Part shown: positions 34,485 to 46,479 of the stretch, piece after piece | How positions within the stretch are numbered: position 1 is the stretch's first letter | Layout of the letters: the number at the start of each line of letters is the position of its first letter | DNA from: Anaeropeptidivorans aminofermentans | Lineage (GTDB): Bacteria; Bacillota; Clostridia; Lachnospirales; UBA5962 | Direction of reading: 5' to 3' | DNA: 64,000 nucleotides | Assembly: GCF_940670685.1 (NCBI RefSeq) | Contig: NZ_OW711693.1 | Span: 2,790,001 to 2,854,000, forward strand | Made by a program: the position numbers and the translations under genes | The notes under the pieces: generated by a model | The model's database searches: none | Told to the model about the DNA's origin: nothing | The model's input: the letters and a program-made list of their open reading frames with translations, nothing else

Positions 34485-35522
34485 CTATTCTTCTCCGCCG
34501 ATAGCAAGCTCATCTTCGGAAGGCGCCTTTTTAAGTAAAAGTATCAGCGCACAGCTTACTGCAGAACCAATGAGGAGCGCGAGGGTAAGCATAATCGGTT
34601 TATTGCATAATGCAACCACGAAATATCCGCCGTGGGGAGCCGCCATTGTACAGCCAAATAAGTAAGAGCTGATAGCGCCTACTGCACCGCCTGCCATAAA
34701 GCACGGTATGTAGAGCAAAGGATTTCCTGTCGCAAAAGGAATGGCAAATTCGGAAATCATTGCAAGGCCGCCTACAAAGCAGCCGCCTGTTGCGTCACGC
34801 TCTGTCTGGGTAAACTTATTTTTTGATATTACCATAGCCATGGCTATAGATAACGGCGGTACCATAGAAGCTACAAAGTTTGCAGCCATAGGGGCATTAT
34901 TTCCGGCTGCCTGGGTTGCAAGAGCAAATGCATAGGCCGCTTTATTTACAGGGCCGCCCAAGTCAAAAGCAAGCATTGCCCCTTGTACAAGGCCTAAAAC
35001 AATAAGGGCGCTTCCCTGTAATCCGCTTAGGAAATTAAGCATTCCCTGATTTATTGCCGCAATAGGGCCTCCCAGCACTATTTCCATAATGAAGCCTATG
35101 GCAAGGGTACCTACAACGGGTATAATTAAAGTTGGAAGCAATGACCTTAAGGCACGGGGCAAGGGTATTTTCTTTAACCACTGCACCATGTATCCTGCGA
35201 TGATACCGCCTATTAAGGCCGCAATAAAGCCTCCGCCGATTTGATCTGCACTGATACCTGCAATCATACCGGGAAGTATAGCAGGTTTATCGCCTATGGA
35301 AAACGCAACATAGGCTGCCATAATGGGAACCATCATGCCAAAGGCATCTTTGCCCCACCAGAAGATTCTGGACCAAAATCCTGTTTGGCTTTGAGTTACT
35401 TCAACCGCTCCGCCTCCTGCGAAACCAATTGCAACTAAAATTCCACCGGCAACAACGAACGGAAGCATATAGGAAACACCTGTCAATAAAGATTGCTTAA
35501 TATCTTTTAAAACTTGGTTCAT
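34485..35522 (-). CDS. PTS fructose-family EIIC permease
   Basis: 345-residue membrane protein of about nine transmembrane helices, the stand-alone IIC of the fructose/mannitol superfamily (QSLLTGVSYMLPFVVAGGILVAIGF, DKPAILPGMIAG, FDLGGPVNKAAYAF, MAAPHGGYFV). It forms the sugar channel and hands phosphate from EIIB to the incoming sugar. Last gene of the cluster, after separate EIIA and EIIB genes. The sugar is not fructose with any certainty; the neighbouring enzymes suggest a different ketose or polyol-derived substrate. Confidence 0.92.
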   Translation of the reverse strand: MNQVLKDIKQSLLTGVSYMLPFVVAGGILVAIGFAGGGAVEVTQSQTGFWSRIFWWGKDAFGMMVPIMAAYVAFSIGDKPAILPGMIAGISADQIGGGFIAALIGGIIAGYMVQWLKKIPLPRALRSLLPTLIIPVVGTLAIGFIMEIVLGGPIAAINQGMLNFLSGLQGSALIVLGLVQGAMLAFDLGGPVNKAAYAFALATQAAGNNAPMAANFVASMVPPLSIAMAMVISKNKFTQTERDATGGCFVGGLAMISEFAIPFATGNPLLYIPCFMAGGAVGAISSYLFGCTMAAPHGGYFVVALCNKPIMLTLALLIGSAVSCALILLLKKAPSEDELAIGGEE

Positions 35523-35620
35523 AAGAAATACCTCCCCTTATACCTCGTAAAATGATGTAAAAAATCTAGACCTTATTATTCTATAAATCAACTCTGAAAA
35601 GTTCCAAAACCTTCGGAATA

Positions 35621-35917
35621 TTACTTTAAAATTGCTTCTGGATTTTTTATAACGTCATGAGGTGAAAACTGCCTGATCTTATCTTTAGGAAAGTCCTTAA
35701 AGCGTTCAGCCTTTGTAATCCCTACATCGTTTGCAAAAACAAGCAAATCTGCCTTTTCTATATCGCTTTTTGAAAGCTGGTCTTCAATCCCTAAGGCTCC
35801 CTGAATTTCCACCTTGCAGGTATGACCATTCTTCTTGCATATCTTTTTTATCGCCTCTGCGGACATATAGGAATGCGCGATACCCGTCGCACATGATGTT
35901 ACGGCAATTACAAACAT
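35621..35917 (-). CDS. PTS fructose-family EIIB
   Basis: 98 residues, single EIIB domain. The phospho-cysteine is in the P-loop MFVIAVTSCATGIAHSYMSAE (Cys9), the standard fructose-EIIB signature; ADLLVFANDVGI follows. It shuttles phosphate from the EIIA gene product upstream to EIIC downstream. AGGAGG precedes the ATG. Confidence 0.94.
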   Translation of the reverse strand: MFVIAVTSCATGIAHSYMSAEAIKKICKKNGHTCKVEIQGALGIEDQLSKSDIEKADLLVFANDVGITKAERFKDFPKDKIRQFSPHDVIKNPEAILK

Positions 35918-36070
35918 TTGTTACTCCTCCTCATACTGGATATTTTTTGTCATTTTCCAAAAGCCGGTTTATGATTATAGCAGATAAAGCTTAAAAAGGC
36001 TCTGCTTTTACTTTATTTCTTGCTGTTGTAAGCCTCTTTTGCATAGGCAGCATAAAAGTAAATGACTGTA

Positions 36071-36550
36071 TTACAGAGACCCTATTTTATTTATTCCGCT
36101 TATTAGCTCGTCATAGCTTTGTACGCCGGCAATCAGTTCTTTAAATTCATCTTTCATCAGATAACCGGCTATGGTAGCCAGAATCCTTAAATGAGAATTA
36201 TCCTCCTGATCATCTTCAACGGCTAAAACAAAAACATACTTTACAGGTCCTTCTTCGTCACCGGAGCGGTATGTAAATTCCTTGCATCTGATAAACGACA
36301 CGCCTGCCTTTATAACCTCCCTGCATTTTCCATGGGGAATAGCAATAAAATCACCCATATAAGTCGGCCCTAATTCTTCTCTGTCTTCTAAGGATTTTCT
36401 AAAAGCCTCTTTGTCTGATACGACTCCGCTTTCCTCAAATTTATCGGAAATGTACAAAAAAAGCTCTTCCTTATTCTGAAAAGAAGGTTCGTTAAGTAGT
36501 GTAAGCTCTTTTAATAATACATCTCCGATTTGGACCCCCTGATTTTCCAA
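36071..36550 (-). CDS. PTS fructose/mannitol-family EIIA
   Basis: 159 residues. The active histidine is in TYMGDFIAIPHGKCREV. N-terminal DVLLKELTLLNEPSFQNKEE and the mid-protein VSDKEAFRKSLEDREELGPT are typical of PTS EIIA type 2. TTG start at 36550 with AAGGA six bases upstream. The 307-base gap between it and dhaL contains no gene or clear repeat. Confidence 0.93.
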   Translation of the reverse strand: MENQGVQIGDVLLKELTLLNEPSFQNKEELFLYISDKFEESGVVSDKEAFRKSLEDREELGPTYMGDFIAIPHGKCREVIKAGVSFIRCKEFTYRSGDEEGPVKYVFVLAVEDDQEDNSHLRILATIAGYLMKDEFKELIAGVQSYDELISGINKIGSL

Positions 36551-36857
36551 AAAAATCCTTCCCTTCTATTTCGTAAATAATCCCTTGAGCAGGCCTTCAA
36601 ATTAAAATAATTTAAACCTTAAAAGCTGCTCTAAAGTATGCGCATTCTTTTTTGGAATTACCCTGTTTATATTGTATCAAAGCTTATAATATATAGATAC
36701 CCTCCAAAAAGCCCGTTTTTGCATCTTATTTGTTATAATCGTATATTTTTAGTGTTTATAAGGATAGGGAACCGTAACTTATCATAATTAATTTTATATC
36801 TTTGTTCATATTATCTGATTATTATATAATTTTAATCTTTAAATTAGAGCTTATATG

Positions 36858-37496
36858 TTAATTTTGCTCATGATTCAGTTTTTGCAAGGAGTCTGCGATA
36901 GAAGTTATAATTAAATAGCTGCTGGTGGCCCCTGCATCAAGTACCCCTCTGGAGCGTTCTCCGAGCCTGCTTGCTCTGCCTATTTTAGCAATCATATTTT
37001 CTGTAGACTTCCAGCCTTCTTCCGCACCTTTTTTTAATTCCTCAAGCGCCTGGTTAAAACCTTTTCCTTCTTTTAAGGCCTTTCTGTATGCATCTTTGGC
37101 AGGAAAGAGCGTATCCAGCAATGTTTTATCCCCCTGCTTTGCATTTCCTATCTCCTGAACGCCTGCAATGGCACTTTCAAGCATTTCAGCAAATGCTTCT
37201 CCATCTATTTCTTCAGGAGCCGCAATGGAAAGCTCTTCAAAAAACACGCCGTACAAAGGGCCCATAGAGCCTCCGATATCCTCCTGTAAAGTTTCAGAAA
37301 GAATATCAAATCCTTCGGATAAGGAAAAGCTTTTGCCTTCAAGTCTATTTTGGCACATTGTAAAGCCTTTATTCATGTTTATCCCATGGTCTCCGTCACC
37401 TATTTTTCCGTCAATTTCGCTGAGAAAATCTTTATTATCCTGAATAATCTTTATTAAATTAAGAACCACCGTACCAGCAGCTTCATTTTTCACCAT
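36858..37496 (-). CDS. dhaL: DhaL-type kinase subunit (ADP/ATP-binding)
   Basis: 212 residues. The Mg-nucleotide motif is IGDGDHGINMNKGF, followed by GGSMGPLYGVFFEEL and LDAGATSSYLI. DhaL carries the nucleotide used to phosphorylate the substrate held by DhaK. In PTS-linked systems DhaM re-phosphorylates it; no dhaM is present, so it may use ATP directly. Given the surrounding isomerases and aldolase, the substrate may be a longer ketose than dihydroxyacetone, for example a tetrulose. Confidence 0.9.
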   Translation of the reverse strand: MVKNEAAGTVVLNLIKIIQDNKDFLSEIDGKIGDGDHGINMNKGFTMCQNRLEGKSFSLSEGFDILSETLQEDIGGSMGPLYGVFFEELSIAAPEEIDGEAFAEMLESAIAGVQEIGNAKQGDKTLLDTLFPAKDAYRKALKEGKGFNQALEELKKGAEEGWKSTENMIAKIGRASRLGERSRGVLDAGATSSYLIITSIADSLQKLNHEQN

Positions 37497-37734
37497 ATTG
37501 TCATCTCTCCTATAACAGAATTATTTATATATGAACTATTTTAAAACAGACGAAAGCACAGCTATCCTTATGAAACTTTAAAGCTTAATAAGGTATCCCA
37601 GCTGAAGCTTAAGTCTGTTTTATATATTGTGGGTTTGAAAATCGTTTTTCTATTATATTGTAATGTTCCTTAAAAAGCTTAATATCTCTGTGGATTTCAG
37701 CTCAAAGTTTTTAAGGGTACTCAAAGCTTATTTG

Positions 37735-38733
37735 CTATAGCTGCTTTAAGCCTACGCTGTCTGCAGGCATATCAATACATTCCTTTAATTCATCATCAAG
37801 CTTCATCATGGTAAGGGTAACGCCTTTCATCTCAAGAGAGGTAAAGTAATTTCCCACATAAGCCTTATATACGGAAATGCCTTTCTCTTTAAGGATATCC
37901 GCTACCTTGCTGTAAACGATATACTGTTCTAAAACAGGGGTCGCTCCCAAGCCTGACAGCAAAACCACCACTTCATCATTTTTTTCAAAAGGAAGGTCGG
38001 GAATAATAATATTCAGCATTTCCTTTGCTATTTCATCGGCATTTTTAAGCTTCTCAACTTTTACCCCCGGTTCTCCGTGGTGGCCTATACCAATTTCCAT
38101 GGTGCCGTCTTCTATGGTAAAATTCGGATGGCCTACGGCAGGGATAGTACAAGGTGCAACCCCTACGCCAACAGACCTTGTATTATCGATAGCCTTTTGC
38201 GCAGCGGCAATGACTTCATCAAGGTTAGCGCCCATGGAAGCCTTGGCTCCGCCTACCTTCCACATAAGGACCTCTCCTGCAACCCCTCTTCTTTTTTCTA
38301 TTTCAGTTTTTGGGGCGGAAGCACAGTCATCATTTGCGACTACGGTTTTTACGGTAATGCCTAATTTTTCCGCTCTGCGTATAGCCATTTTTACATTCAT
38401 ATTGTCTCCGGCGTAGTTACCGTAAAGACAGGCCACGCCTTTTCCTGAATTGGCTTCTACCATGGCGTTTAAAAAGGATTTTGCCGTAGGAGAAGAAAAT
38501 ATCTGGCCTACAGCCACAGCATCACACATATTTTTCCCTATGTATCCGATAAAGGCAGGCTTGTGGCCGGAGCCGCCCCCCGTTACGATACCTACCTTTT
38601 CAGGAACCGGCGCATTAACATATTTAAGCACTTTATCATCTTCCGCAGCCTGAACGATATCTTTATTCGCCTTAACAAAACCTTTCAGCATATCCTCAAC
38701 TACATAATCCGGATCGTTTATAATCTGATTCAT
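37735..38733 (-). CDS. dhaK: DhaK-type kinase subunit (substrate-binding)
   Basis: 332 residues from ATG 38733, which has AAGGAG at good spacing; the frame opens at a TTG at 38751. GGGSGHKPAFIGYIGKNMCD is the DhaK signature, but with Lys where E. coli DhaK has Glu in GGGSGHEP. The histidine that forms the hemiaminal with the ketose is in GIGHHGEPGVKVEK. The pair DhaK-DhaL with sugar isomerases resembles the erythrulose kinase systems, but sequence alone does not settle the substrate. 238 bases separate it from dhaL. Confidence 0.9.
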   Translation of the reverse strand: MNQIINDPDYVVEDMLKGFVKANKDIVQAAEDDKVLKYVNAPVPEKVGIVTGGGSGHKPAFIGYIGKNMCDAVAVGQIFSSPTAKSFLNAMVEANSGKGVACLYGNYAGDNMNVKMAIRRAEKLGITVKTVVANDDCASAPKTEIEKRRGVAGEVLMWKVGGAKASMGANLDEVIAAAQKAIDNTRSVGVGVAPCTIPAVGHPNFTIEDGTMEIGIGHHGEPGVKVEKLKNADEIAKEMLNIIIPDLPFEKNDEVVVLLSGLGATPVLEQYIVYSKVADILKEKGISVYKAYVGNYFTSLEMKGVTLTMMKLDDELKECIDMPADSVGLKQL

Positions 38734-38928
38734 TTTTATCTCCTTCCCCAAATACAGTGAACTTAAGCCGTCGATTTATAGCAACTGAATAAAATATACG
38801 GTAAAATTTTTATAAAAAAGTAATAAAAACCTATCTATAGTAAAATATTTTTTTATATTAATGAAATAACGTAAGAACTTGTTCTAAGGATTATTTCACT
38901 CAGTCTATTGCTGTAAAATGCTCTGCCT

Positions 38929-39384
38929 TTAGGATTTGTGATACTCTCTGTCAATTTCTTTGATTCTTTCCACCTTAGGTCCGGAGCCGCCGCCTTCGAA
39001 ATTACAGGAAAGCCAAATGTCCACAAGATACTTGGCAAGCTCTACCCCTATTACTCTTTCGCCCATACACATAATCTGGGCGTCATTGCTTTTACGGGAG
39101 CGCTCTGTAGAAAAGGGGTCGTGGCATACAGCCGCCCTTATGCCGGGAACCTTATTAGCCGTCATGGACATACCGATGCCCGTTCCGCACATAAGAATCC
39201 CTCTTTCAAATTCTCCCCTGGATATGGCTTCTGCAACTTCCTTTGCAACATTTGGATAGAGAACGGCTTCGCCTTGGTTGGCGCCGAAATCGATAATTTC
39301 AATGTCTTCTCTTTTTTCTAAATGCTTCATTATTTCTATTTTAAGCTTGTATGCCGCTTCGTCGCAGCCTATCGCTATTTTCAT
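38929..39384 (-). CDS. RpiB/LacAB-family sugar-phosphate isomerase
   Basis: 151 residues. The catalytic cysteine lies in ILMCGTGIGMSMTANKVPGIRAAVCHD. The N-terminal motif is GCDEAAYKLK where ribose-5-phosphate isomerase B normally has GCDHAGYELK, so the histidine and glycine of that loop are replaced. Family members act on ribose-5-P, allose-6-P, galactose-6-P or tetrulose phosphates. AGGAGG before the ATG; 17 bases after the epimerase gene. Confidence 0.88.
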   Translation of the reverse strand: MKIAIGCDEAAYKLKIEIMKHLEKREDIEIIDFGANQGEAVLYPNVAKEVAEAISRGEFERGILMCGTGIGMSMTANKVPGIRAAVCHDPFSTERSRKSNDAQIMCMGERVIGVELAKYLVDIWLSCNFEGGGSGPKVERIKEIDREYHKS

Positions 39385-39400
39385 AATTGTACCTCCTAAG

Positions 39401-40258
39401 CTACAGGGCTTCCGCTATGGCCTTTAAATTCTTTAAGCCCTCTATTGCAAGCTCTTCGCCTGTATCTGCAAACTTTCTCCAAATTGCGCAGTTTCCTGCA
39501 AGTTCTTCAAAGCTTGGGTCAAAGGATTCGATTACCAAGGGGCCGTCGTATCCTACTTCCTTCACTGCAAGGAAAAATTCTTCAAAGGGCACAAGGCCTG
39601 TACCGGGAATGCCTCTGTCGTTTTCATTTACATGAATATAGCCCAAATATTCTTTTCCGCAGGTTAATACGGCACCCCGGAAGCTTTTTTCTTCCCTTAT
39701 CATATGGAAGCAGTCAAGATGCACCTTTATATTGCCCGTTCCTACATCTTTACAGAATTTCACGGCATCTTCCGCTATATTTAAAAAGAAGGTTTCAAAG
39801 CGGTTTACACATTCTACGCAGATGGTAACATTTCCCGTTTCCTTAGCATAATTACCCACTTCACGCATGCTTTCTATACCCCACTGCCACTCCTCTGCTG
39901 TCCGGGGCTTTTTGGTAATATAGCCCCATGCGGCATAGTTTACACCCCCAAGAATAGGAGAGCCTAAGTAATTGCAGATATCCACGCATTTTTTTATAGC
40001 GGCTACAGCGGTCCTCCTGATTTCAGGGTCGGGTGAAATGGGGTTTGTGCTTTCCGTAAGGGTCGTAGTACATACACATTCAATCCCTACTCTTTCTAAT
40101 TCTTCCTTTACAAGTTCCGCAGGAAATGTGTATGGATTGGATATGGCAAAATCAACGACTTCAAAGCCTAATTCCTTTGCCTTAGCGATAATCCATAAAT
40201 CCTTTTGGCTGAAACTTTCCGTCCAAATAAAGCTATCTACTCCAAATTTAAAATTCAT
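39401..40258 (-). CDS. Ketose 3-epimerase-like TIM-barrel protein
   Basis: 285 residues of the AP endonuclease 2-like/xylose isomerase-like TIM barrel superfamily, closest by pattern to D-tagatose/D-psicose 3-epimerases. Metal ligands are visible: Glu in VECVNRFETFFLN, Asp in KVHLDCFHM, His in YLGYIHVNENDRGIPGTG and Glu in PLVIESFDPSF. The segment AAWGY (residues about 108-112) lines the substrate pocket in relatives. It may epimerise or isomerise a free ketose or its phosphate. It sits between the RpiB and HAD genes, 17-20 bases from each. Confidence 0.85.
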   Translation of the reverse strand: MNFKFGVDSFIWTESFSQKDLWIIAKAKELGFEVVDFAISNPYTFPAELVKEELERVGIECVCTTTLTESTNPISPDPEIRRTAVAAIKKCVDICNYLGSPILGGVNYAAWGYITKKPRTAEEWQWGIESMREVGNYAKETGNVTICVECVNRFETFFLNIAEDAVKFCKDVGTGNIKVHLDCFHMIREEKSFRGAVLTCGKEYLGYIHVNENDRGIPGTGLVPFEEFFLAVKEVGYDGPLVIESFDPSFEELAGNCAIWRKFADTGEELAIEGLKNLKAIAEAL

Positions 40259-40278
40259 AGCGCTCCGCCTTTCTTATA

Positions 40279-40932
40279 TTAAAATAAATCCAAAATATCT
40301 TCTGCTTTTTCAACAATATAGACAGCACCCTTTTCAGAAAGCTCTGTACGGCCCCTAAAGCCCCATAAAACCCCTGCCGTATCCATATTTGCGTTTTTTC
40401 CCGTTTGAATATCTGTTCCCGAATCGCCTATGTAAATGATTTCAGAAACAGGCAAATCCATTTTCTCTGCGATTTCAAGGGCGGAGACAGGGTTAGGCTT
40501 TTTGGGGATATTCTCCCGCTCTCCGATAATATCTACAAAGGGGATTTCAGGAAAGTTAAGCCTTATCAGATGATTGGTATAGTCTGTTCTCTTATTGGAA
40601 TTCACCCCGATTTTAATGCCCTTTTCCTTAAGTCTTAAAAGTAATTCTGAAATCCCTTCATAAGGCCTTGTTTTATCGGTATATTTTCTGTCATAGGTAT
40701 TTAAGAATAGCCGCAATGCTTCATCAAGGAGCTTTTCACTTTGCACTCCTTCGGGAAGACTCTGTTCCAGAAGATTACGGAAGCCTCTGCCTATTTTAAG
40801 CTTGTAGGCTTCATAAGAATGGATAGGATACCCGTAGTAGGTCAAAACCTCGTTTACGCTGTCTGAAAGGTCTTCGATGGTGTTAAGAAGCGTACCGTCA
40901 AGGTCAAATATGACCCCTTTATACTTTCCCAT
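40279..40932 (-). CDS. HAD-family phosphatase (phosphoglycolate phosphatase-like)
   Basis: 217 residues. Motif I is FDLDGTLLNTIEDL, motif II VNSNKRTDY, motif III KKPNPVSALE with GDSGTDIQTGKNA. The cap domain is of the C1 type. Typical activities are removal of phosphate from phosphoglycolate or sugar phosphates. In this cluster it could recycle a dead-end phosphate. First gene after the cluster-internal terminator at 41069. Confidence 0.88.
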   Translation of the reverse strand: MGKYKGVIFDLDGTLLNTIEDLSDSVNEVLTYYGYPIHSYEAYKLKIGRGFRNLLEQSLPEGVQSEKLLDEALRLFLNTYDRKYTDKTRPYEGISELLLRLKEKGIKIGVNSNKRTDYTNHLIRLNFPEIPFVDIIGERENIPKKPNPVSALEIAEKMDLPVSEIIYIGDSGTDIQTGKNANMDTAGVLWGFRGRTELSEKGAVYIVEKAEDILDLF

Positions 40933-40957
40933 ATATTCCTCCTTCTTATCTTAATTG

Positions 40958-41062
40958 AGAATGAAATCGGGATTTGCTTTACAAATCCAAACCGCCGCTC
41001 ACTAGGCTCAGGAAGTATCTTTTTACATAGCTGCCCTGTGAGCTAAGTACATGCCTTTTCAT
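40958..41062 (-). repeat. Repeat R3, inverted copy
   Basis: On the minus strand: GGCATGTACTTAGCTCACAG, ACTTCCTGAGCCTAG and GGTTTGGATTTGTAAAGC, the R3 landmarks in order. Confidence 0.5.
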
Positions 41063-41068
41063 AATGGC

Positions 41069-41101
41069 AAAAGAGCCTTCGCTAATTAGCGAAGGCTCTT
41101 C
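41069..41101 (-). terminator. Terminator after the cupin gene
   Basis: Perfect stem AAGAGCCTTCGCTAA / TTAGCGAAGGCTCTT with a T-rich tail on the minus strand, 28 bases after the cupin stop codon. It separates the aldolase-cupin part of the cluster from the HAD-to-EIIC part. Confidence 0.85.
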
Positions 41102-41128
41102 GTTTCTCTTAGCATTACATCATCTTTT

Positions 41129-42046
41129 TTATAATTCTGTAATTGCAAAGACTACTTTAATAGGTTTGTTTTCAAAATTCACAAGCTGATATTTTGTTCC
41201 CGCAGGTAAAAAGAAGGAATCTTCCGGATTTAGGATGAAGCTTTCCTGCAAGTCAACAAGGTTTACTGTTACGGGACCGTCAATACAATATAATGCGCCG
41301 TCTCCTGCATGTACATCCGGATCCGAACAGCGTGGGCCATATCCGCCTGCCGGAAGTATAAACTCACCAAAATGTCCGTAGTCATTGCTTGAAATAAATC
41401 TCATTAACATGGGGTGTTTTGTTCCATGGATATTGTTAAGCTTTTCAAAGTCTCTGATGCCGTATACTGCGCCGTCTCTTCTGGCTTCTTGATGGTCTAC
41501 AGGGGGCCAGCAGCCAATATCGTCTGTGCATCCCTGCCTTGAAATATCATGGATTTTACCTCTCATATCAGGCAAAGTGCTGTTGTTGGCGCCTTTGTAG
41601 TATTTCGTCTCTTCATCTGAAGGGATAACCGCAGGGGGAATTGCTTCGCTCCATGCTTTCGGCGTGATAAAGTATAAAATTCTCGCCTTCTCATTGGAGA
41701 AATTATGGCAGCAATGCCATGCGCCTTCCGGCATCCATAAGCCTTCGCCGCTTTCAAGATATGCAAACTGGCCGTTTCCGCTTCTCTGTAAAACAGGACC
41801 GTTTAAGATATAATAAGTTTCATCTCCCGGGTGTATATCAAGAGGAAGGAAAACACCCCCCGGGCATAATTCATAAATACCAAGCATAAAGGTATCCGTC
41901 GTAACAATCGTAAAAGTATTATCCGATGTAAAGGCATCGTTTGGCGGATATAAAGCCGTTGGATAATCTTGCTTGCGAATAAGCATAGGCCTCTTCTCAT
42001 TGGGAAGGCAGGGGAATTTTTCTAAAATATCTAATAATTTAGGCAT
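41129..42046 (-). CDS. Bicupin protein of unknown function
   Basis: 305 residues with two cupin barrels. The first (residues about 45-150) keeps plausible metal ligands: DIHPGDETYYIL gives His and Glu, and MPEGAWHCCHN the distal His. The second (about 205-305) has HAGDGALYCIDG and LPAGTKYQLVN, lacking the glutamate and distal histidine, so it is probably metal-free. Could be a sugar-phosphate isomerase or lyase, or a lyxose-isomerase-like enzyme; no named family could be assigned. Lies between the aldolase and the HAD gene. Confidence 0.7.
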   Translation of the reverse strand: MPKLLDILEKFPCLPNEKRPMLIRKQDYPTALYPPNDAFTSDNTFTIVTTDTFMLGIYELCPGGVFLPLDIHPGDETYYILNGPVLQRSGNGQFAYLESGEGLWMPEGAWHCCHNFSNEKARILYFITPKAWSEAIPPAVIPSDEETKYYKGANNSTLPDMRGKIHDISRQGCTDDIGCWPPVDHQEARRDGAVYGIRDFEKLNNIHGTKHPMLMRFISSNDYGHFGEFILPAGGYGPRCSDPDVHAGDGALYCIDGPVTVNLVDLQESFILNPEDSFFLPAGTKYQLVNFENKPIKVVFAITEL

Positions 42047-42092
42047 ATAAAATCTCCTTTATACTAATAAATTTAAAAGCGGAACTTACGCT

Positions 42093-42192
42093 TATAGTAA
42101 ATTTCTTATAAAAAAGGGACAAAACCCGATTCACTAAAGAACAAAATTAAGCTTAAATGGTTTTGTTACGGTTTCACTTTAAACTTACTATA
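42093..42192 (-). repeat. Repeat R1, shortened copy (R1f)
   Basis: About 100 bases with good R1 ends (TATAGTAAATTTCTTATAAA and TTTAAACTTACTATA) but most of the central hairpin missing. It fills the gap between aldolase and cupin genes. Confidence 0.7.
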
Positions 42193-42246
42193 GCCCTCAA
42201 TTTTATGTTTACAGTAAAGCTAAGAAAAAAGGATCTGCTTTAGGCT

Positions 42247-43125
42247 TTACTTTCCGTTTTTAAATGCAAGAATTACTTCTTTGGCATAGCTCTTCATGAA
42301 TTTATAAGCTTCTTCCTGTACTTCATGGTAAGCGATTTTGCCTTCTTTTTCTGCAATAAGCTCTCCTACAAATTTCGTCGTTGCTTTTGCCATATAAGAA
42401 TAGTAGTTTATTTTTGAGCATCCTGCGTCAATCGCATTCTGAACCTGTGAGAACTCTACCCCGGAGGCTCCGTGCATAACCACACGGCAATCCTTCGGTA
42501 AAGCCGCTCTAATTTCTTTTACTCTGTCTATATCAAGCACCGGGGGTTCTGCGTATATGCCATGCATCGTGCCGAAGCAAACCGCTAAAGCATCACAGCC
42601 TGTTTCCTCGGCAAATATTTTTGCTTCTTCCGGCTCCGTAAAAAACTTCTTAATATCTTCGTTGGTTAATACTTGAGTTTCAGCGTCAGCGTGGGTATCT
42701 TCTTCTGTTGAAGCCATAACCCCAAGCTCCGCTTCAACTGTTATGCCGGCTGCATGAGCGATTTGAACAAATTTTTTAACCTTTGCGATATTTTCCTCAA
42801 AAGGCAGCGCACTGCAATCATACATAATAGAAGGGAAGCCTGCTTTTATTGCACGAAGCACAAAATTATAATCTGTGCCGTGGTCTAAATGAACACAAAC
42901 AGGTACAGATGCTTCTTTCGCATATTTAATCATTTCAGGGCCGATTCTCTCAATAGGTATCAGGGAGTCATGCACCTCAGCATGGTCAATGATTATAGGG
43001 GTGTTTAACTCCTCAGCTGCCCCTATCACCGCGCGGATTGTCTCTACATTCGGTGTATTGATACAAGGTATGGCGTATCTTTCCCTTTCCGCTATTTCCA
43101 AAATTTCCTTCATGTTTACTAACAT
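42247..43125 (-). CDS. Class II ketose-bisphosphate aldolase family protein
   Basis: 292 residues, zinc-dependent aldolase of the fructose/tagatose-bisphosphate type. VCVHLDHGTD carries the catalytic Asp and zinc His, VEAELGVMAS the second region, ALAVCFGTMHGIY the next zinc His, and CRVVMHGASGVE the third. NYYSYMAKAT follows instead of the usual KINVATD. Expected to cleave a ketose mono- or bisphosphate into DHAP and an aldehyde. First enzyme gene downstream of the regulator; GGAGG seven bases before its ATG. Confidence 0.9.
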   Translation of the reverse strand: MLVNMKEILEIAERERYAIPCINTPNVETIRAVIGAAEELNTPIIIDHAEVHDSLIPIERIGPEMIKYAKEASVPVCVHLDHGTDYNFVLRAIKAGFPSIMYDCSALPFEENIAKVKKFVQIAHAAGITVEAELGVMASTEEDTHADAETQVLTNEDIKKFFTEPEEAKIFAEETGCDALAVCFGTMHGIYAEPPVLDIDRVKEIRAALPKDCRVVMHGASGVEFSQVQNAIDAGCSKINYYSYMAKATTKFVGELIAEKEGKIAYHEVQEEAYKFMKSYAKEVILAFKNGK

Positions 43126-43261
43126 TTCACGTCCTCCTTTTGTTGAAAATGTATGTTAACTTAGAATAATCTATTGTTCATATCCATCATAACGGATTTA
43201 AAACATCAAGTATATAGACCATAATTTCATGTTTTGCACAGTATTTTTTTATTTCGGACAA

Positions 43262-43369
43262 TTAATGAATTTATAGCATATCGTAGGTTTCTCATAAAGA
43301 AGGAACGGAAACTGATTCCCTATGGATTCAAAAATACGGATTTTCTTTTGAAGATAAATCCCTATTTGT
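43262..43369 (-). repeat. Partial R1 copy
   Basis: Contains reverse-orientation R1 pieces (TTTCTCATAAAGAAGGAAC, ATGGATTCAAAAATACGGAT) ending directly against the next R1/R6 composite. Confidence 0.5.
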
Positions 43370-43567
43370 TATAGTAAATTTCTTATAAAGAAGGAACAAA
43401 AACCGATTCACTACGGATTCAGCGTTACCAAACAAAAAACATGTGTGATAACCATAAGAAATCCTCACTTAAAAAAGATTTGCAGGCTTACGCCTGCATC
43501 CTTTTCCAAGTTCGCGCAGTATAAAAATACGGATTTCTTCCGGAAACATAGTGAAATTGCCTTCTTT
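43370..43567 (-). repeat. R1 carrying an R6 insertion, second copy
   Basis: Very close to 11178-11374 along its full length: same R1 end, same R6 core (ACCATAAGAAATCCTCACTT, TTGCAGGCTTACGCCTGCAT, AAGTTCGCGCAGTATAAAAA) and the same resumption of R1 (ACGGATTTCTTCCGGAAAC). Confidence 0.7.
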
Positions 43568-43638
43568 GTATAAATAAACTTAAAAAATGAGATGCTTCAT
43601 TATAAATACAGAAAAAGCTCATGGCTTTTAAGGTTTAA

Positions 43639-43849
43639 AAATAGTTTAATTACAGTAACAAAAATCGTATATTTTATACTTAGTGAACCCGAAAACACTT
43701 ACAGGGAAGCTAGATGAACGTTCCCTTATAGTCAACAAAGCTCTTTTTATTTTTGTTGACTTTGAATGGTTTAATATAGGCGTTTCTACTATATTAAGCT
43801 GTTTATGAAAATAGGTTTTTGTTCCTGCCTTAAAGCTGTTTCACTATAT
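43639..43849 (+). repeat. Repeat R5 interrupted by an 89-base insertion
   Basis: R5 runs from AATAGTTTAATTACAGTAAC to CGTATATTTT, is broken at about 43675-43763 by foreign sequence that ends in a hairpin (TATAGTCAACAAA / TTTGTTGACT), then resumes GAATGGTTTAATATAGGCG and ends GTTTCACTATATA. Confidence 0.65.
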
Positions 43850-43867
43850 ATGCCTTTTCTCAGGACA

Positions 43868-43908
43868 GCAAAAAAGCACCAGGCAGATTAAACCGCCTGA
43901 TGCTTTTA
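43868..43908 (-). terminator. Terminator of the regulator gene
   Basis: Stem AAGCATCAGGCGG / CTGCCTGGTGCTT (minus strand) with a T run, immediately after the stop codon of the PRD regulator. Confidence 0.8.
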
Positions 43909-43913
43909 ATAAT

Positions 43914-45881
43914 CTATGCTTTTCCTTTTGTTATATAGTCATATATCTGTGTACTGGTGTCTGCATTCTTTATCTTTTTCAGAAGTTCCTGATTTTCAAT
44001 AAGCTCATAAAGGTAATGGAAGAGCACTTTTATTTTAAGAGGCTCTTTATACTTAATGGCAATCAGGAATATAAGCTTTACCTTTTCGTCCTGATTCCAG
44101 CGAACCCTATGGCGTACACGGGCAACAGCTATGGCATTTTTCAATATATTGTCATAATAACCATGGGGGATTGCAATTTCATTTCCTATTGACGTCGGGC
44201 AGAACCTTTCACGCTCTAAAACATCTTCAAGAAACCCCTCCTCTACACAGCCGTTTTTTAAAAGAAGCTCCGTCATCTGGCTTATGGCTTCTTCCTTATG
44301 GGGAACGGATAAATCAGGCATAATCAGCTGCGTTTCAAAAACCTCGTGGATAAGCTCTTGAATAAGCTTCGTCTGATAACGCCACTCCATATTGTCCAAA
44401 CCGTTTTTAATGCATTCCAAGTCATTTTTATTAATATGCTTTGTAATCTCTATAACGTTATCTGCGTAGTCTTTAAAGGGCACTGTAGAAATAACAAGAC
44501 AGTTCTCTGCCATAGCAGGCTCAAAGTTTTTAAAATATAAGCTTTTTTTAATAATTAGTTTCGGTATTTCCTCTTCTATCTTTTCTTTCTGATAAAAAGC
44601 CGTATGATAGTTTGTTCCGTGAACAAGTATGGCAGGAATGCGATTTTTTATATCATGGATACAATTTCGTATTAATAAGGTAATCCAAGCCACATCGTCT
44701 TGTCTGAAACGGCAGCCGATGCACTCTTCAACGCTGTGGATATTTGTCATGCAGATACCGTAAAGGCCTGTAAGCTGCTTTTGAATATCTCTGTAAAGCT
44801 CGCTCCAATCAAGGATTTGGTAAGCTTCTCTTATTTTTATCCGTACAAACGCAATACTTAGTTCCTTAATAAGCTCAGCATTAACACTTAACAGCTTAGT
44901 GCCTATAATTTCTTCTATTCTAAGGAGAAAGTCTATTACAATATCTTTATATTCGTCATCTGCCTCTATATTGGCATCATCGCAGGTAGATGCAACAAAA
45001 AGTCTTGCAGCTAAATACTGTGCCTCGGGTAAATAGCCCTTTTTCATTTCCGGCAGGACATGCTTCAGTATATGAAGCGCAGCCTCCAGATATTTGTCGG
45101 GAATCTTTACCGGCTGGCCTTTCTGCTCCTCTTTATTTATTTTCTTCCCCAGCCGTACCCTCTCCATAGTAATGGCAAGGTATTCCAAAAGCCTTCCGAA
45201 GGAAATATCAATAAACTGAATACCGAGTTTTATTTCTCCTGCTTGGAGCTCTTCCTGTGCGGCAATTAAATCTTCCTTTGAATAGGTATTGGAAAGGTAA
45301 GTATAGGCCTTTTTACTTATTCTTCTATCCATCGGCCCCGTATCTTCCAAAATGGTATCCCTGTTCCAATTCCAATATTTCGAATTATTGCAGTCTATCA
45401 TGGACTGGCGGATATTAAACTCATTTCCTTCTAAGATAATCCCCTGATTTCGTACTCGCCTTATTTCTACGTGGAATTTTTTAAGCTCTTTATCTATCTG
45501 TTCTAAATCCTTCTGTATTGTATTTCTGCTGACAGACAATTCATCTGAAAAAAGCTGAATCGTATAATTGGCAGGGTAAAGGAATAAAGTTTCCAGTATG
45601 TATTCCTTTCTGTAAGTGTAGAATTCCGAGGTTCTGCTTACGGCTTCATTTAAGGCATGGATAATTTCCTGCCTTTGCTCCGGCGTAGCAACCAGCAAAA
45701 AGCCCTTTTTCGGAATACTCTGGAGGGAAGCATGAAACTTTTCAAGCTCTTTTTTTATCTGGGAGAGATTATGTTTAATATTACTGGCGGATATACCGGT
45801 TAAATCTGCCAGTGAATTTGCAGTAATATACCCGTCAACGTCAACAATGCTTCTTATAACCTTTTCACTGATAAGATCCAT
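43914..45881 (-). CDS. PRD-domain transcriptional regulator with PTS EIIA domain (MtlR/LicR-like)
   Basis: 655 residues: N-terminal winged-helix/HTH modules (ADLTGISASNIKHNL; LSVSRNTIQKDLEQI), two PTS regulation domains (about 190-400), an EIIB-like domain (about 405-490) and a C-terminal EIIA type 2 domain with CPTSIGNEIAIPHGYYD. It is the likely activator of the cluster, encoded upstream on the same strand. By eye the PRD histidines are replaced (LLEYLAITMER, QYLAARLF, LIKELSIAFVR, ITLLIRNCI) and the EIIB loop reads VHGTNYHTAFY without the phospho-cysteine, while the EIIA histidine is kept. Signal transfer may therefore differ from MtlR. Confidence 0.85.
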   Translation of the reverse strand: MDLISEKVIRSIVDVDGYITANSLADLTGISASNIKHNLSQIKKELEKFHASLQSIPKKGFLLVATPEQRQEIIHALNEAVSRTSEFYTYRKEYILETLFLYPANYTIQLFSDELSVSRNTIQKDLEQIDKELKKFHVEIRRVRNQGIILEGNEFNIRQSMIDCNNSKYWNWNRDTILEDTGPMDRRISKKAYTYLSNTYSKEDLIAAQEELQAGEIKLGIQFIDISFGRLLEYLAITMERVRLGKKINKEEQKGQPVKIPDKYLEAALHILKHVLPEMKKGYLPEAQYLAARLFVASTCDDANIEADDEYKDIVIDFLLRIEEIIGTKLLSVNAELIKELSIAFVRIKIREAYQILDWSELYRDIQKQLTGLYGICMTNIHSVEECIGCRFRQDDVAWITLLIRNCIHDIKNRIPAILVHGTNYHTAFYQKEKIEEEIPKLIIKKSLYFKNFEPAMAENCLVISTVPFKDYADNVIEITKHINKNDLECIKNGLDNMEWRYQTKLIQELIHEVFETQLIMPDLSVPHKEEAISQMTELLLKNGCVEEGFLEDVLERERFCPTSIGNEIAIPHGYYDNILKNAIAVARVRHRVRWNQDEKVKLIFLIAIKYKEPLKIKVLFHYLYELIENQELLKKIKNADTSTQIYDYITKGKA

Positions 45882-46004: not shown

Positions 46005-46108
46005 TATAGTCAGTCAATTTGCTTTTATTCCCAAGTGAGTATTCTGATTGAGGGAGCTTAAAATAAGAGAAAAGCAAATGGATTATGGCATTATTTCATA
46101 TTTTATTA
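46005..46108 (+). repeat. Repeat R2
   Basis: TATAGTCAGTCAATTTGCTT at the left, then GAGGGAGCTTAAAATAAGAG and AAAAGCAAATGGATTATGG. Same order as the copy at 46387-46479. Confidence 0.7.
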
Positions 46109-46386: not shown

Positions 46387-46479
46387 ATATAGTCAATTTG
46401 CTTTTATGCCGAAATGAATATTTAGATTGAAACGGCTTAAAATAAAAGAAAAGCAAATGGACTATGATATTATTTCATT
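46387..46479 (+). repeat. Repeat R2
   Basis: TATAGTCAATTTGCTTTTAT left end and AAAAGCAAATGGACTATG right end, near-perfect inverted repeats, followed by ATATTATTTCATT as in other copies. With its neighbour at 46005 it fills most of the gap between the regulator and the tRNA operon. Confidence 0.75.

Follow-up and report, generated by a model that had tools for sequence, protein, structure and literature searches.

A conserved PTS-aldolase-bicupin gene cluster of Anaeropeptidivorans aminofermentans with a predicted tetrose salvage route via erythrulose

A cluster of eleven genes that joins a sugar phosphotransferase system (PTS) to a class II aldolase, a bicupin and an erythrulose-type enzyme set was analysed in a 64,000-nucleotide stretch of the Anaeropeptidivorans aminofermentans genome (NCBI RefSeq assembly GCF_940670685.1, contig NZ_OW711693.1, positions 2,790,001 to 2,854,000; hereafter the window, whose own numbering is used throughout). 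The cluster is real and conserved, and it was not matched to a described pathway in the literature searched. An even chance is given to a reading in which a ketose is taken up by the PTS and cleaved by the aldolase, and the resulting tetrose is salvaged via erythrulose to erythrose-4-phosphate. Gene content, conservation, subfamily signatures and the absence of DhaM were computed, whereas all reactions are predicted; the putative tetrose tail of the route is supported by a residue signature that can be tested, and a seven-carbon ketose is a candidate for the entry sugar.

The scheme is the simplest one that gives every gene except that of the HAD phosphatase a role. Judging from its class and from the aldolase, the fructose-class EIIABC would import the ketose as ketose-1-phosphate, which the class II aldolase, according to its residues, would split into dihydroxyacetone phosphate (DHAP) and an unphosphorylated aldotetrose. 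Erythrulose would arise from the aldotetrose through isomerisation by the bicupin, after which the TIM-barrel 3-epimerase would convert L-/D-erythrulose to the D form. A DerK-like DhaKL, presumably with ATP, would then produce D-erythrulose-4-phosphate, as suggested by its subfamily, its neighbourhood and the absence of DhaM, and the DerI/EryI-like RpiB homologue, identified by its computed signature, would supply D-erythrose-4-phosphate to the pentose phosphate pathway. Because the predicted products are DHAP and a C4 compound, the entry sugar would be a C7 ketose. The full proposal, a PTS pathway for a heptulose of the sedoheptulose, mannoheptulose or perseulose type with a ketose-1-phosphate aldolase, a new bicupin tetrose isomerase and erythrulose salvage, is tentative and in this specific form rather doubtful; no paper on PTS uptake of heptuloses was found among the titles and abstract openings of the literature search, in which subscription journals were mostly outside coverage. 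If correct, the scheme would link tetritol/erythrulose enzymes to PTS sugar uptake, assign functions to the bicupin family and the co-occurring aldolase subfamily, and provide candidate genes for heptulose use in core-bearing bacteria, among them Faecalicatena, Absicoccus and a Lachnospiraceae species.

The original prediction of a PTS-linked pathway that mixes an erythrulose/tetritol-type module with a PTS and class II aldolase module was supported. Open reading frames and Pfam assignments bore out eleven co-oriented genes with an MtlR-like regulator at their head, 788 nt from the aldolase gene, and every gene family named (Table 1); likewise confirmed were the DhaK motif GGGSGHKP, the altered RpiB loop (CDEAA in the window protein, CDHVG in that of E. 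coli) and the lack of DhaM, none being found by a whole-genome search of the 3.76-Mb, single-contig genome, which contains a single DhaK. The co-occurrence of the cluster genes elsewhere, proposed as a check, was found as well: a scan of genome contigs revealed the same families together, in shuffled orders, in seven further genomes, namely those of Faecalicatena contorta (locus L009), Alkalibaculum sporogenes (L013, class Clostridia) and Absicoccus porci (L015, class Erysipelotrichia) and the metagenome-assembled genomes (MAGs) of a Ruminococcus (L014), a Lachnospiraceae (L011), a Hydrogenispora (L010) and an Erysipelothrix species (L012; incomplete, 1.2 Mb, with the contig ending inside the bicupin gene). 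All conservation counts cover these seven and the window. The Faecalicatena and Ruminococcus loci are not independent, since they are near relatives (DhaK 98% identical). Out of 391 genomes of the class, only that of the window and G232 (taken as Alkalibaculum) contained a close bicupin relative (E <= 1e-20), and only these two a close aldolase relative (E <= 1e-75); a bicupin profile (E <= 1e-20) run on 398 phylum genomes found the window genome and G560 (taken as Hydrogenispora). A search of viral contigs gave no relative.

EIIA, EIIB, EIIC, the class II aldolase and the bicupin constitute the core and occur in 8/8 genomes, the Hydrogenispora EIIABC lying on a contig that terminates within the aldolase gene; the bicupins of the seven other genomes are 74-84% identical. 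TIM barrel, DhaKL, RpiB and HAD are accessory. The TIM barrel is in four of the eight clusters (window, Erysipelothrix, Alkalibaculum, Absicoccus) and the window-type DhaKL in three (window, Alkalibaculum, Absicoccus), always with the TIM barrel; RpiB lies within the cluster in the window, Absicoccus and the Lachnospiraceae MAG, and the window-type HAD in the window, Alkalibaculum and Hydrogenispora (the latter two copies 59-63% identical). A DhaK only 39-43% identical to that of the window adjoins the core together with DhaL in Faecalicatena and Ruminococcus, and one equally distant is fused with DhaL and accompanied by triose-phosphate isomerase (TPI) in the Lachnospiraceae MAG. The gene order is regulator-aldolase-bicupin-HAD-TIM-RpiB-DhaK-DhaL-EIIABC in the window, DeoR-like regulator-EIIABC-TIM-aldolase-bicupin-DhaK-DhaL-HAD in Alkalibaculum and regulator-TIM-aldolase-EIIABC-bicupin-RpiB-DhaK-DhaL in Absicoccus; since both gene sets are interleaved in these three different orders, they can be argued to form one functional unit.

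A sign of a tetrose substrate was obtained from the RpiB homologue. A tetrulose-4-phosphate cannot form a furanose ring. In E. coli RpiB the furanose ring is opened by His99, to which His96 of LacA is equivalent (excerpt of PMC3755991), and a Coccidioides RpiB with Ser at the equivalent of His99 was suspected by its authors to use shorter substrates (excerpt of PMC3212906). The window protein retains the catalytic Cys66 and has Glu10, Ser99 and Ser134 (E. coli numbering); because the ring-opening His99 is replaced by Ser, it is probably not a ribose-phosphate isomerase. In an alignment of 20 sequences, 16 of them from plasmid-collection records and the other four from the window, Absicoccus, Lachnospiraceae and E. 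coli K-12, Ser99 was combined with Ser134 in 12/12 homologues whose loci contain DhaKL, TPI, OiaX or erythritol-type genes, and in 0/8 of the remainder; the loci were sorted by annotation, the plasmid loci having been fetched before the residues were inspected, and the signature was derived in this analysis and is not a published definition. Anywhere in the genome, a Ser99/Ser134 RpiB was present in seven of the eight core-bearing genomes: window, Absicoccus (seen in the cluster), Lachnospiraceae (G782), G232, G560, Faecalicatena (G780) and Ruminococcus (G781); none was seen in the 1.2-Mb Erysipelothrix MAG (G783). For background, 40 other class genomes were searched, which yielded 42 RpiB hits; the best per genome was classified, 13 weaker hits being left out and 6 genomes being without a hit, and His99 was present in 29/29 of those classified. 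When five of the six other core genomes were compared with none of the 29, a Fisher test gave p = 2e-5; this value is indicative only, as related genomes do not count as independent and each core genome contributed several classified RpiBs, but each control genome one. A second RpiB of the window genome carries His99; this match lists one stop. Ser99/Ser134 may mark tetrose-phosphate isomerases apart from RpiB; the standard model TIGR01120 passes the window protein. Among further loci, that of Pasteurella multocida (L044, 4726-16414) contains DhaK, DhaL, a TIM barrel, a sugar-binding regulator, a Ser99 RpiB 68% identical to that of the window, a TRAP transporter, TPI, transaldolase and transketolase, and is a probable tetrulose locus with a different transporter. 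The rhizobial plasmids of R. etli IE4771 and Rhizobium C104 each carry an RpiB-family gene at a distance of about 23 kb from the bicupin relatives described below; the C104 copy has Ser99.

In comparison with E. coli GatY and YdjI, the window aldolase retains HLDH, both later metal-site His residues, the GAS/GGS loop and the Asn of KxN, with Ser for Thr three residues after the latter (cluster motif KxNxYSYMAK). Two basic positions, which we take to hold the C6 phosphate in fructose-1,6-bisphosphate aldolases, are replaced: six residues after the KxN Asn it has Ala (Lys in GatY, Cys in YdjI), and at the C-terminal position Tyr or Ser (Lys in GatY, Arg in YdjI). Because these distal-phosphate residues are replaced, the enzyme probably acts on a ketose-1-phosphate whose tail carries no phosphate, with DHAP and an aldose as predicted products; the same residues do not exclude a hexulose. 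In the six cluster aldolases aligned, the loop after EAELG/EGELG is longer than in GatY and YdjI. Of the assignments by hidden Markov model (HMM) that had been proposed as a check, those to the TIM-barrel type and to the broad aldolase subfamily were obtained (TIGR00167, 223.3 vs 215.6 bits), and the narrower models stayed below their cut-offs (TIGR01859, 230.9 vs 343.05; TIGR01858, 194.2 vs 443.55; for the TIM barrel NF051856, 175.3 vs 300 bits). Fructose-type EIIs phosphorylate fructose at C1. The best plasmid relative of the aldolase, from Pantoea (42%), is part of an antiterminator-EIIA-EIIC-aldolase operon without kinase (L045, 4582-8861), a minimal form of the same PTS-aldolase logic. 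Judged by eye, a PTS enzyme I gene lies in the cluster in Faecalicatena (L009, 13376-15295, with HPr) and in Hydrogenispora (L139, 912-2630), which suggests a dedicated phospho-relay.

The window DhaK is 67-69% identical to those of Absicoccus and Alkalibaculum and 64-67% to the best plasmid DhaKs (six compared; best 30 of 659 records), and it scores below TIGR02363 (346.6 vs 406.25 bits). Since the genome is without DhaM, DhaKL is presumably ATP-dependent. In the neighbourhood comparison of this DhaK subfamily, short-chain dehydrogenases/reductases (SDRs) of the GolD/DthD type, RpiB, transaldolase or transketolase accompany most of the eight close-relative loci, and the combinations vary. The SDR was found in L016, L019, L021 and L099, RpiB in L016, L017 and L020, transaldolase in L016 and L017 and transketolase in L017; L098 has a Zn-dependent alcohol dehydrogenase (ADH), and L018 none of the four. 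By organism, the neighbours are RpiB, transaldolase, SDR and ADH in Salmonella, RpiB, transaldolase, transketolase and ADH in Klebsiella, RpiB in Sphaerotilus, an SDR and a second DhaKL set in the rhizobial loci and an unrelated TIM barrel, without RpiB, in R. etli. All four SDRs tested exceeded the cut-off of 286 of model NF005309 (365.9, 409.2, 351.3 and 397.7), which covers both GolD and DthD. DthD is a D-threitol dehydrogenase and GolD a glycerol enzyme; the neighbouring transaldolase, transketolase and Ser99 RpiB genes would favour a C4 product over glycerol or dihydroxyacetone. A possible precedent for dihydroxyacetone is the golD locus of Listeria, reportedly with DhaKLM and RpiB; the Listeria stretch compared here gave no match to any cluster protein. 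In the Lachnospiraceae cluster, DhaKL, TPI and a Ser99 RpiB stand where others have the TIM barrel and the DerK-type DhaKL; in the LerK/LerI/DerI route, we take it, such a set acts on L-erythrulose, and the replacement argues, with moderate confidence, for L-erythrulose as the meeting point. DerI is given as an established step in the excerpt of PMC10733421, in which LerI/DerI, supplied with tetritols, met the erythrose-4-phosphate requirement of an E. coli transketolase (tktAB) double mutant. As a mark of the pathway, the HKP motif was rejected: besides the three cluster DhaKs it occurs in two further Faecalicatena DhaKs of ABC-transporter and dehydrogenase (threitol-type) loci, one of which adjoins a GolD/DthD SDR, and the six close plasmid DhaKs have HEP, so that HKP is regarded as a lineage variant.

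For the bicupin, the family search gave generic Cupin_2 and sub-threshold hits only, without a hit above threshold to the family HMMs of lyxose/ribose isomerase, KduI or IolB, and sequence and profile searches of the PDB returned weak hits to other cupin-type proteins only. Its rhizobial relatives (about 42%) are split into two adjacent genes (L005, 10001-10872; L006, 10001-10872; L048) beside genes for ribulokinase, L-ribulose-5-phosphate 4-epimerase and a sugar ABC transporter; because of these neighbours, the bicupin is suggested to be an aldose-ketose isomerase. D-erythrose has been isomerised in vitro with an isomerase of another family, according to the excerpt of PMC10547157. In the TIM barrel, the Glu, Asp, His, Arg and Glu positions are conserved in an alignment with 3vni; metal-binding or catalytic roles are presumed for the Glu, Asp, His and Glu positions. 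The protein is a predicted C3-epimerase, possibly with L-/D-erythrulose as candidate substrate; EryC, an erythrulose-1-phosphate 3-epimerase, is given as an established step in the excerpt of PMC10733421. The HAD phosphatase may, speculatively, clear a side product. The assignment of the TIM barrel as an OiaC-like decarboxylase was rejected, as it shows no resemblance to the presumably OiaC-like TIM-barrel protein encoded in the Erwinia DhaKL/TPI locus.

Several observations weigh against tetrose salvage via erythrulose. The tetrulose module is not universal, because DhaK, TIM or RpiB is missing from several core clusters: the Hydrogenispora MAG has the core, yet no DhaK in its genome (E <= 1e-10) and no TIM barrel in its cluster, the incomplete Erysipelothrix MAG likewise yielded no DhaK, and the 20-kb loci of Faecalicatena and Ruminococcus are without TIM barrel and RpiB, their DhaKs being only 41-43% identical. 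The Ser99 RpiBs of Alkalibaculum and Hydrogenispora are encoded outside the cluster, within different gene groups, and may have another function; by eye, both copies adjoin a transaldolase-like gene, and that of Hydrogenispora also split transketolase and aldolase genes. Ser99 without Ser134 occurs in a Klebsiella RpiB/LacAB protein of a locus of the non-tetrose type, beside PTS EIIABC and the 6-phospho-3-hexuloisomerase gene hxlB (L056, 5992-8675), possibly with another specificity. The window RpiB passes the rpiB equivalog TIGR01120 (165.7 vs 138.65 bits) and stays below the DerI model NF051858 (170.8 vs 240 bits); three plasmid RpiBs from DhaKL loci likewise fail the latter (173.7, 164.9 and 169.1 bits), and the former is also exceeded by the RpiB of a DhaKL locus on a Salmonella plasmid (150.5 bits), i.e. 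the NCBIfam models do not cleanly separate the RpiB types. The TPI of the Lachnospiraceae cluster narrowly exceeds the cut-off of the ordinary TPI model (131.6 vs 130.6), and since NF005309 spans GolD and DthD, glycerol or dihydroxyacetone is a possible substrate of the DhaKs concerned. The roles of the distal-phosphate residues of the aldolase are presumed. The AlphaFold model of the bicupin, built from eight close sequences, is poor (mean pLDDT 42.9), and homologues of the TIM barrel, 68-70% identical, are found away from cluster genes in three MAGs of one family (L040, 6812-7699; L038, 2572-3522; L039, 8156-9004). The L040 homologue lies between PGDH/aminotransferase-looking genes and FolD.

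Among the alternatives, a hexulose-1-phosphate route would be in no less good agreement with the fructose-type PTS and with the residues of the aldolase: the latter would yield DHAP and glyceraldehyde, the bicupin or TIM barrel would convert the latter to dihydroxyacetone, and DhaKL, formally of the dihydroxyacetone kinase family, would form a second DHAP. The DhaKL beside TPI in the Lachnospiraceae cluster and GolD, the other name of the adjacent SDR family and a glycerol/dihydroxyacetone enzyme, are in line with this route, but it leaves the Ser99/Ser134 RpiB without a role, although that type is found in nearly all core genomes and in none of the classified background proteins, and the window DhaK groups with DhaKs of RpiB/transaldolase/transketolase loci; we consider it unlikely. 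Somewhat less probable still are two systems merely co-located or co-regulated, with PTS, aldolase and bicupin for one sugar and TIM barrel, DhaKL and RpiB as a separate tetritol/erythrulose module. The absence of the accessory module from several core clusters, the DerK-type DhaKL loci that stand alone in Faecalicatena and the two off-cluster Ser99 RpiBs agree with such an arrangement, whereas the interleaving of both sets in three orders and the lack of a tetritol dehydrogenase or second transporter in the window cluster speak for a single one.

A tagatose-6-phosphate-like pathway, in which the PTS delivers a hexose-6-phosphate that becomes a ketose-6-phosphate, DhaKL phosphorylates C1 in the manner of LacC and the aldolase cleaves the 1,6-bisphosphate, is judged improbable. 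PTS, RpiB/LacAB isomerase, ketose epimerase, kinase and class II aldolase are the right fold families, and the positive charge of HKP beside the conserved DhaK His could, speculatively, hold a phosphate; but HKP is also found in DhaKs of threitol-type loci, and the original prediction that DhaKL phosphorylation comes before aldol cleavage is disfavoured by the lack of the distal-phosphate basic residues seen in GatY, by the tetrose-type RpiB signature without the ring-opening His that LacA keeps, and by Hydrogenispora, which retains the core with no DhaK found. Because of these three observations, aldol cleavage more likely precedes DhaKL. Very improbable is a branched-chain sugar of the apiose/hamamelose type with DhaKL as an apulose-type kinase: a rhizobial-plasmid locus of the apionate type (OiaX annotated) does contain a TPI and Ser99 RpiB pair, but the cluster contains no apionate enzyme, the window TIM barrel has no BLAST similarity (1e-3) to those of the Erwinia, R. 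etli and Pasteurella DhaKL loci, and retro-aldol cleavage by a DHAP aldolase would on chemical grounds be unsuited to apulose.

Tetrose salvage via erythrulose, the preferred reading, has parts in common with several known systems. For Mycolicibacterium smegmatis, catabolism of D-threitol and erythrulose by DthD-DerK-DerI and by LerK-LerI-DerI was reportedly described by Huang et al. in 2015. The window cluster resembles that route in its DhaKL-type kinase, close to DhaKs beside GolD/DthD SDRs, and in its RpiB-family isomerase with the signature of tetrose-type loci; it differs in having no tetritol dehydrogenase and in that PTS, aldolase and bicupin would provide the entry for which that route has a tetritol transporter. 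With the EryABCDHI system of Brucella and rhizobia it shares the Ser99/Ser134 RpiB homologue, present in two ery-looking loci (L052, L053), but it lacks the FGGY erythritol kinase and EryB, and its TIM barrel is of the psicose-3-epimerase type. PTS import, an RpiB/LacAB isomerase and a class II aldolase releasing DHAP are as in lacABCD and the galactitol PTS/GatYZ systems; unlike these, the window has no LacC-type kinase, no distal-phosphate residues in the aldolase and no ring-opening His in RpiB.

In the ydjEFGHIJ locus of E. coli, YdjI is annotated as L-glycero-L-galacto-octuluronate-1-phosphate aldolase, i.e. as a class II aldolase named for a ketose-1-phosphate with a phosphate-free far end, and it resembles the cluster aldolase in its non-basic residue six positions after the KxN Asn; in contrast to the window, the annotation assigns formation of the 1-phosphate to a kinase, YdjH, and not to a PTS, there is no tetrulose module, and YdjI keeps the C-terminal Arg. 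The pairing of a bicupin isomerase with a class II aldolase is also reminiscent of IolB and IolJ of inositol catabolism, but other iol genes are absent from the cluster and the bicupin gave no IolB family hit.

Table 1. Genes of the cluster, with their domain and model assignments, and copies of the dispersed repeat (window positions).
Feature	Position	Strand	Assignment
PTS-controlled activator, MtlR/LicR type	43914..45881	-	Mga HTH, HTH_11, PRD, EIIA_2 domains (Pfam)
Class II aldolase, distinct subfamily	42247..43125	-	F_bP_aldolase (PF01116), 270 bits; GatY/YdjI alignment
Bicupin	41129..42046	-	Cupin_2 in two stretches (Pfam)
HAD phosphatase, phosphoglycolate-phosphatase-like, accessory	40279..40932	-	HAD_2
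TIM barrel, D-psicose/D-tagatose 3-epimerase type	39401..40258	-	AP_endonuc_2; NF051856, 175.3 bits
RpiB-family isomerase	38929..39384	-	LacAB_rpiB (Pfam)
DhaK, DerK-like (GIGHHGEPG, GGGSGHKP)	37735..38751	-	Dak1 (Pfam)
DhaL, nucleotide-binding kinase subunit	36858..37496	-	Dak2; TIGR02365, 173.4 bits vs cut-off 138.3; GDGDHG metal motif
PTS EIIA, fructose/mannitol class	36071..36550	-	PTS_EIIA_2; His in IPHGK
PTS EIIB, fructose type	35621..35917	-	PTS_IIB; TIGR00829, 87.3 bits vs cut-off 76.85; Cys in SCATG
PTS EIIC, fructose type	34485..35522	-	PTS_EIIC; TIGR01427, 299.2 bits vs cut-off 157.55
Dispersed repeat, ten copies	9240, 11186, 23938, 27306, 33767, 34173, 42102, 43288, 43379, 49645

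All eleven reading frames (34485-45881) are on the minus strand, and a purine-rich, ribosome-binding-like stretch precedes 10 of the 11 listed starts; for DhaK, the ATG at 38733, with GGAG upstream, is probably the start rather than the TTG at 38751. HAD, TIM and RpiB genes are closely spaced (20 and 16 nt), but the remaining gaps of the enzyme block measure 98-307 nt, and for this reason a single operon is not demonstrated. The domain set of the regulator is presumably of the MtlR/LicR type, and an activator with PRD and EIIA domains would tie expression of the cluster to PTS flux. Regulators 31-49% identical to it adjoin the cluster in Faecalicatena, the Lachnospiraceae and Ruminococcus MAGs and Absicoccus; a DeoR-type regulator is present instead in Hydrogenispora (L139, Pfam) and, judged by eye only, in Alkalibaculum (L008, 8167-9009). 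In Faecalicatena, genes for a Gfo/Idh/MocA-type oxidoreductase and a tandem glyoxalase-fold protein (Glyoxalase_4) lie directly upstream of the regulator (L009, 4692-6688).

At the start of the gap between regulator and aldolase is an inverted repeat, directly succeeded by a run of T, which is not among the hits of the terminator scan; the scan found a different hairpin inside the gap, at 43498-43481. No exact match to the pattern of CcpA-type cre sites was found within the cluster. The repeats ahead of the aldolase gene were shown to belong to a dispersed repeat with the core GTTCCTTCTTTATRAGAAA, of which the window has 10 copies (<=3 mismatches) against 0.12 expected from shuffles; three of the ten sit between genes of the cluster. 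Upstream of the regulator gene, near a group of tRNA and 5S rRNA genes, an 88-nt direct repeat (46012-46099 and 46391-46478) was observed, the two copies being 84% identical and 379 nt apart.

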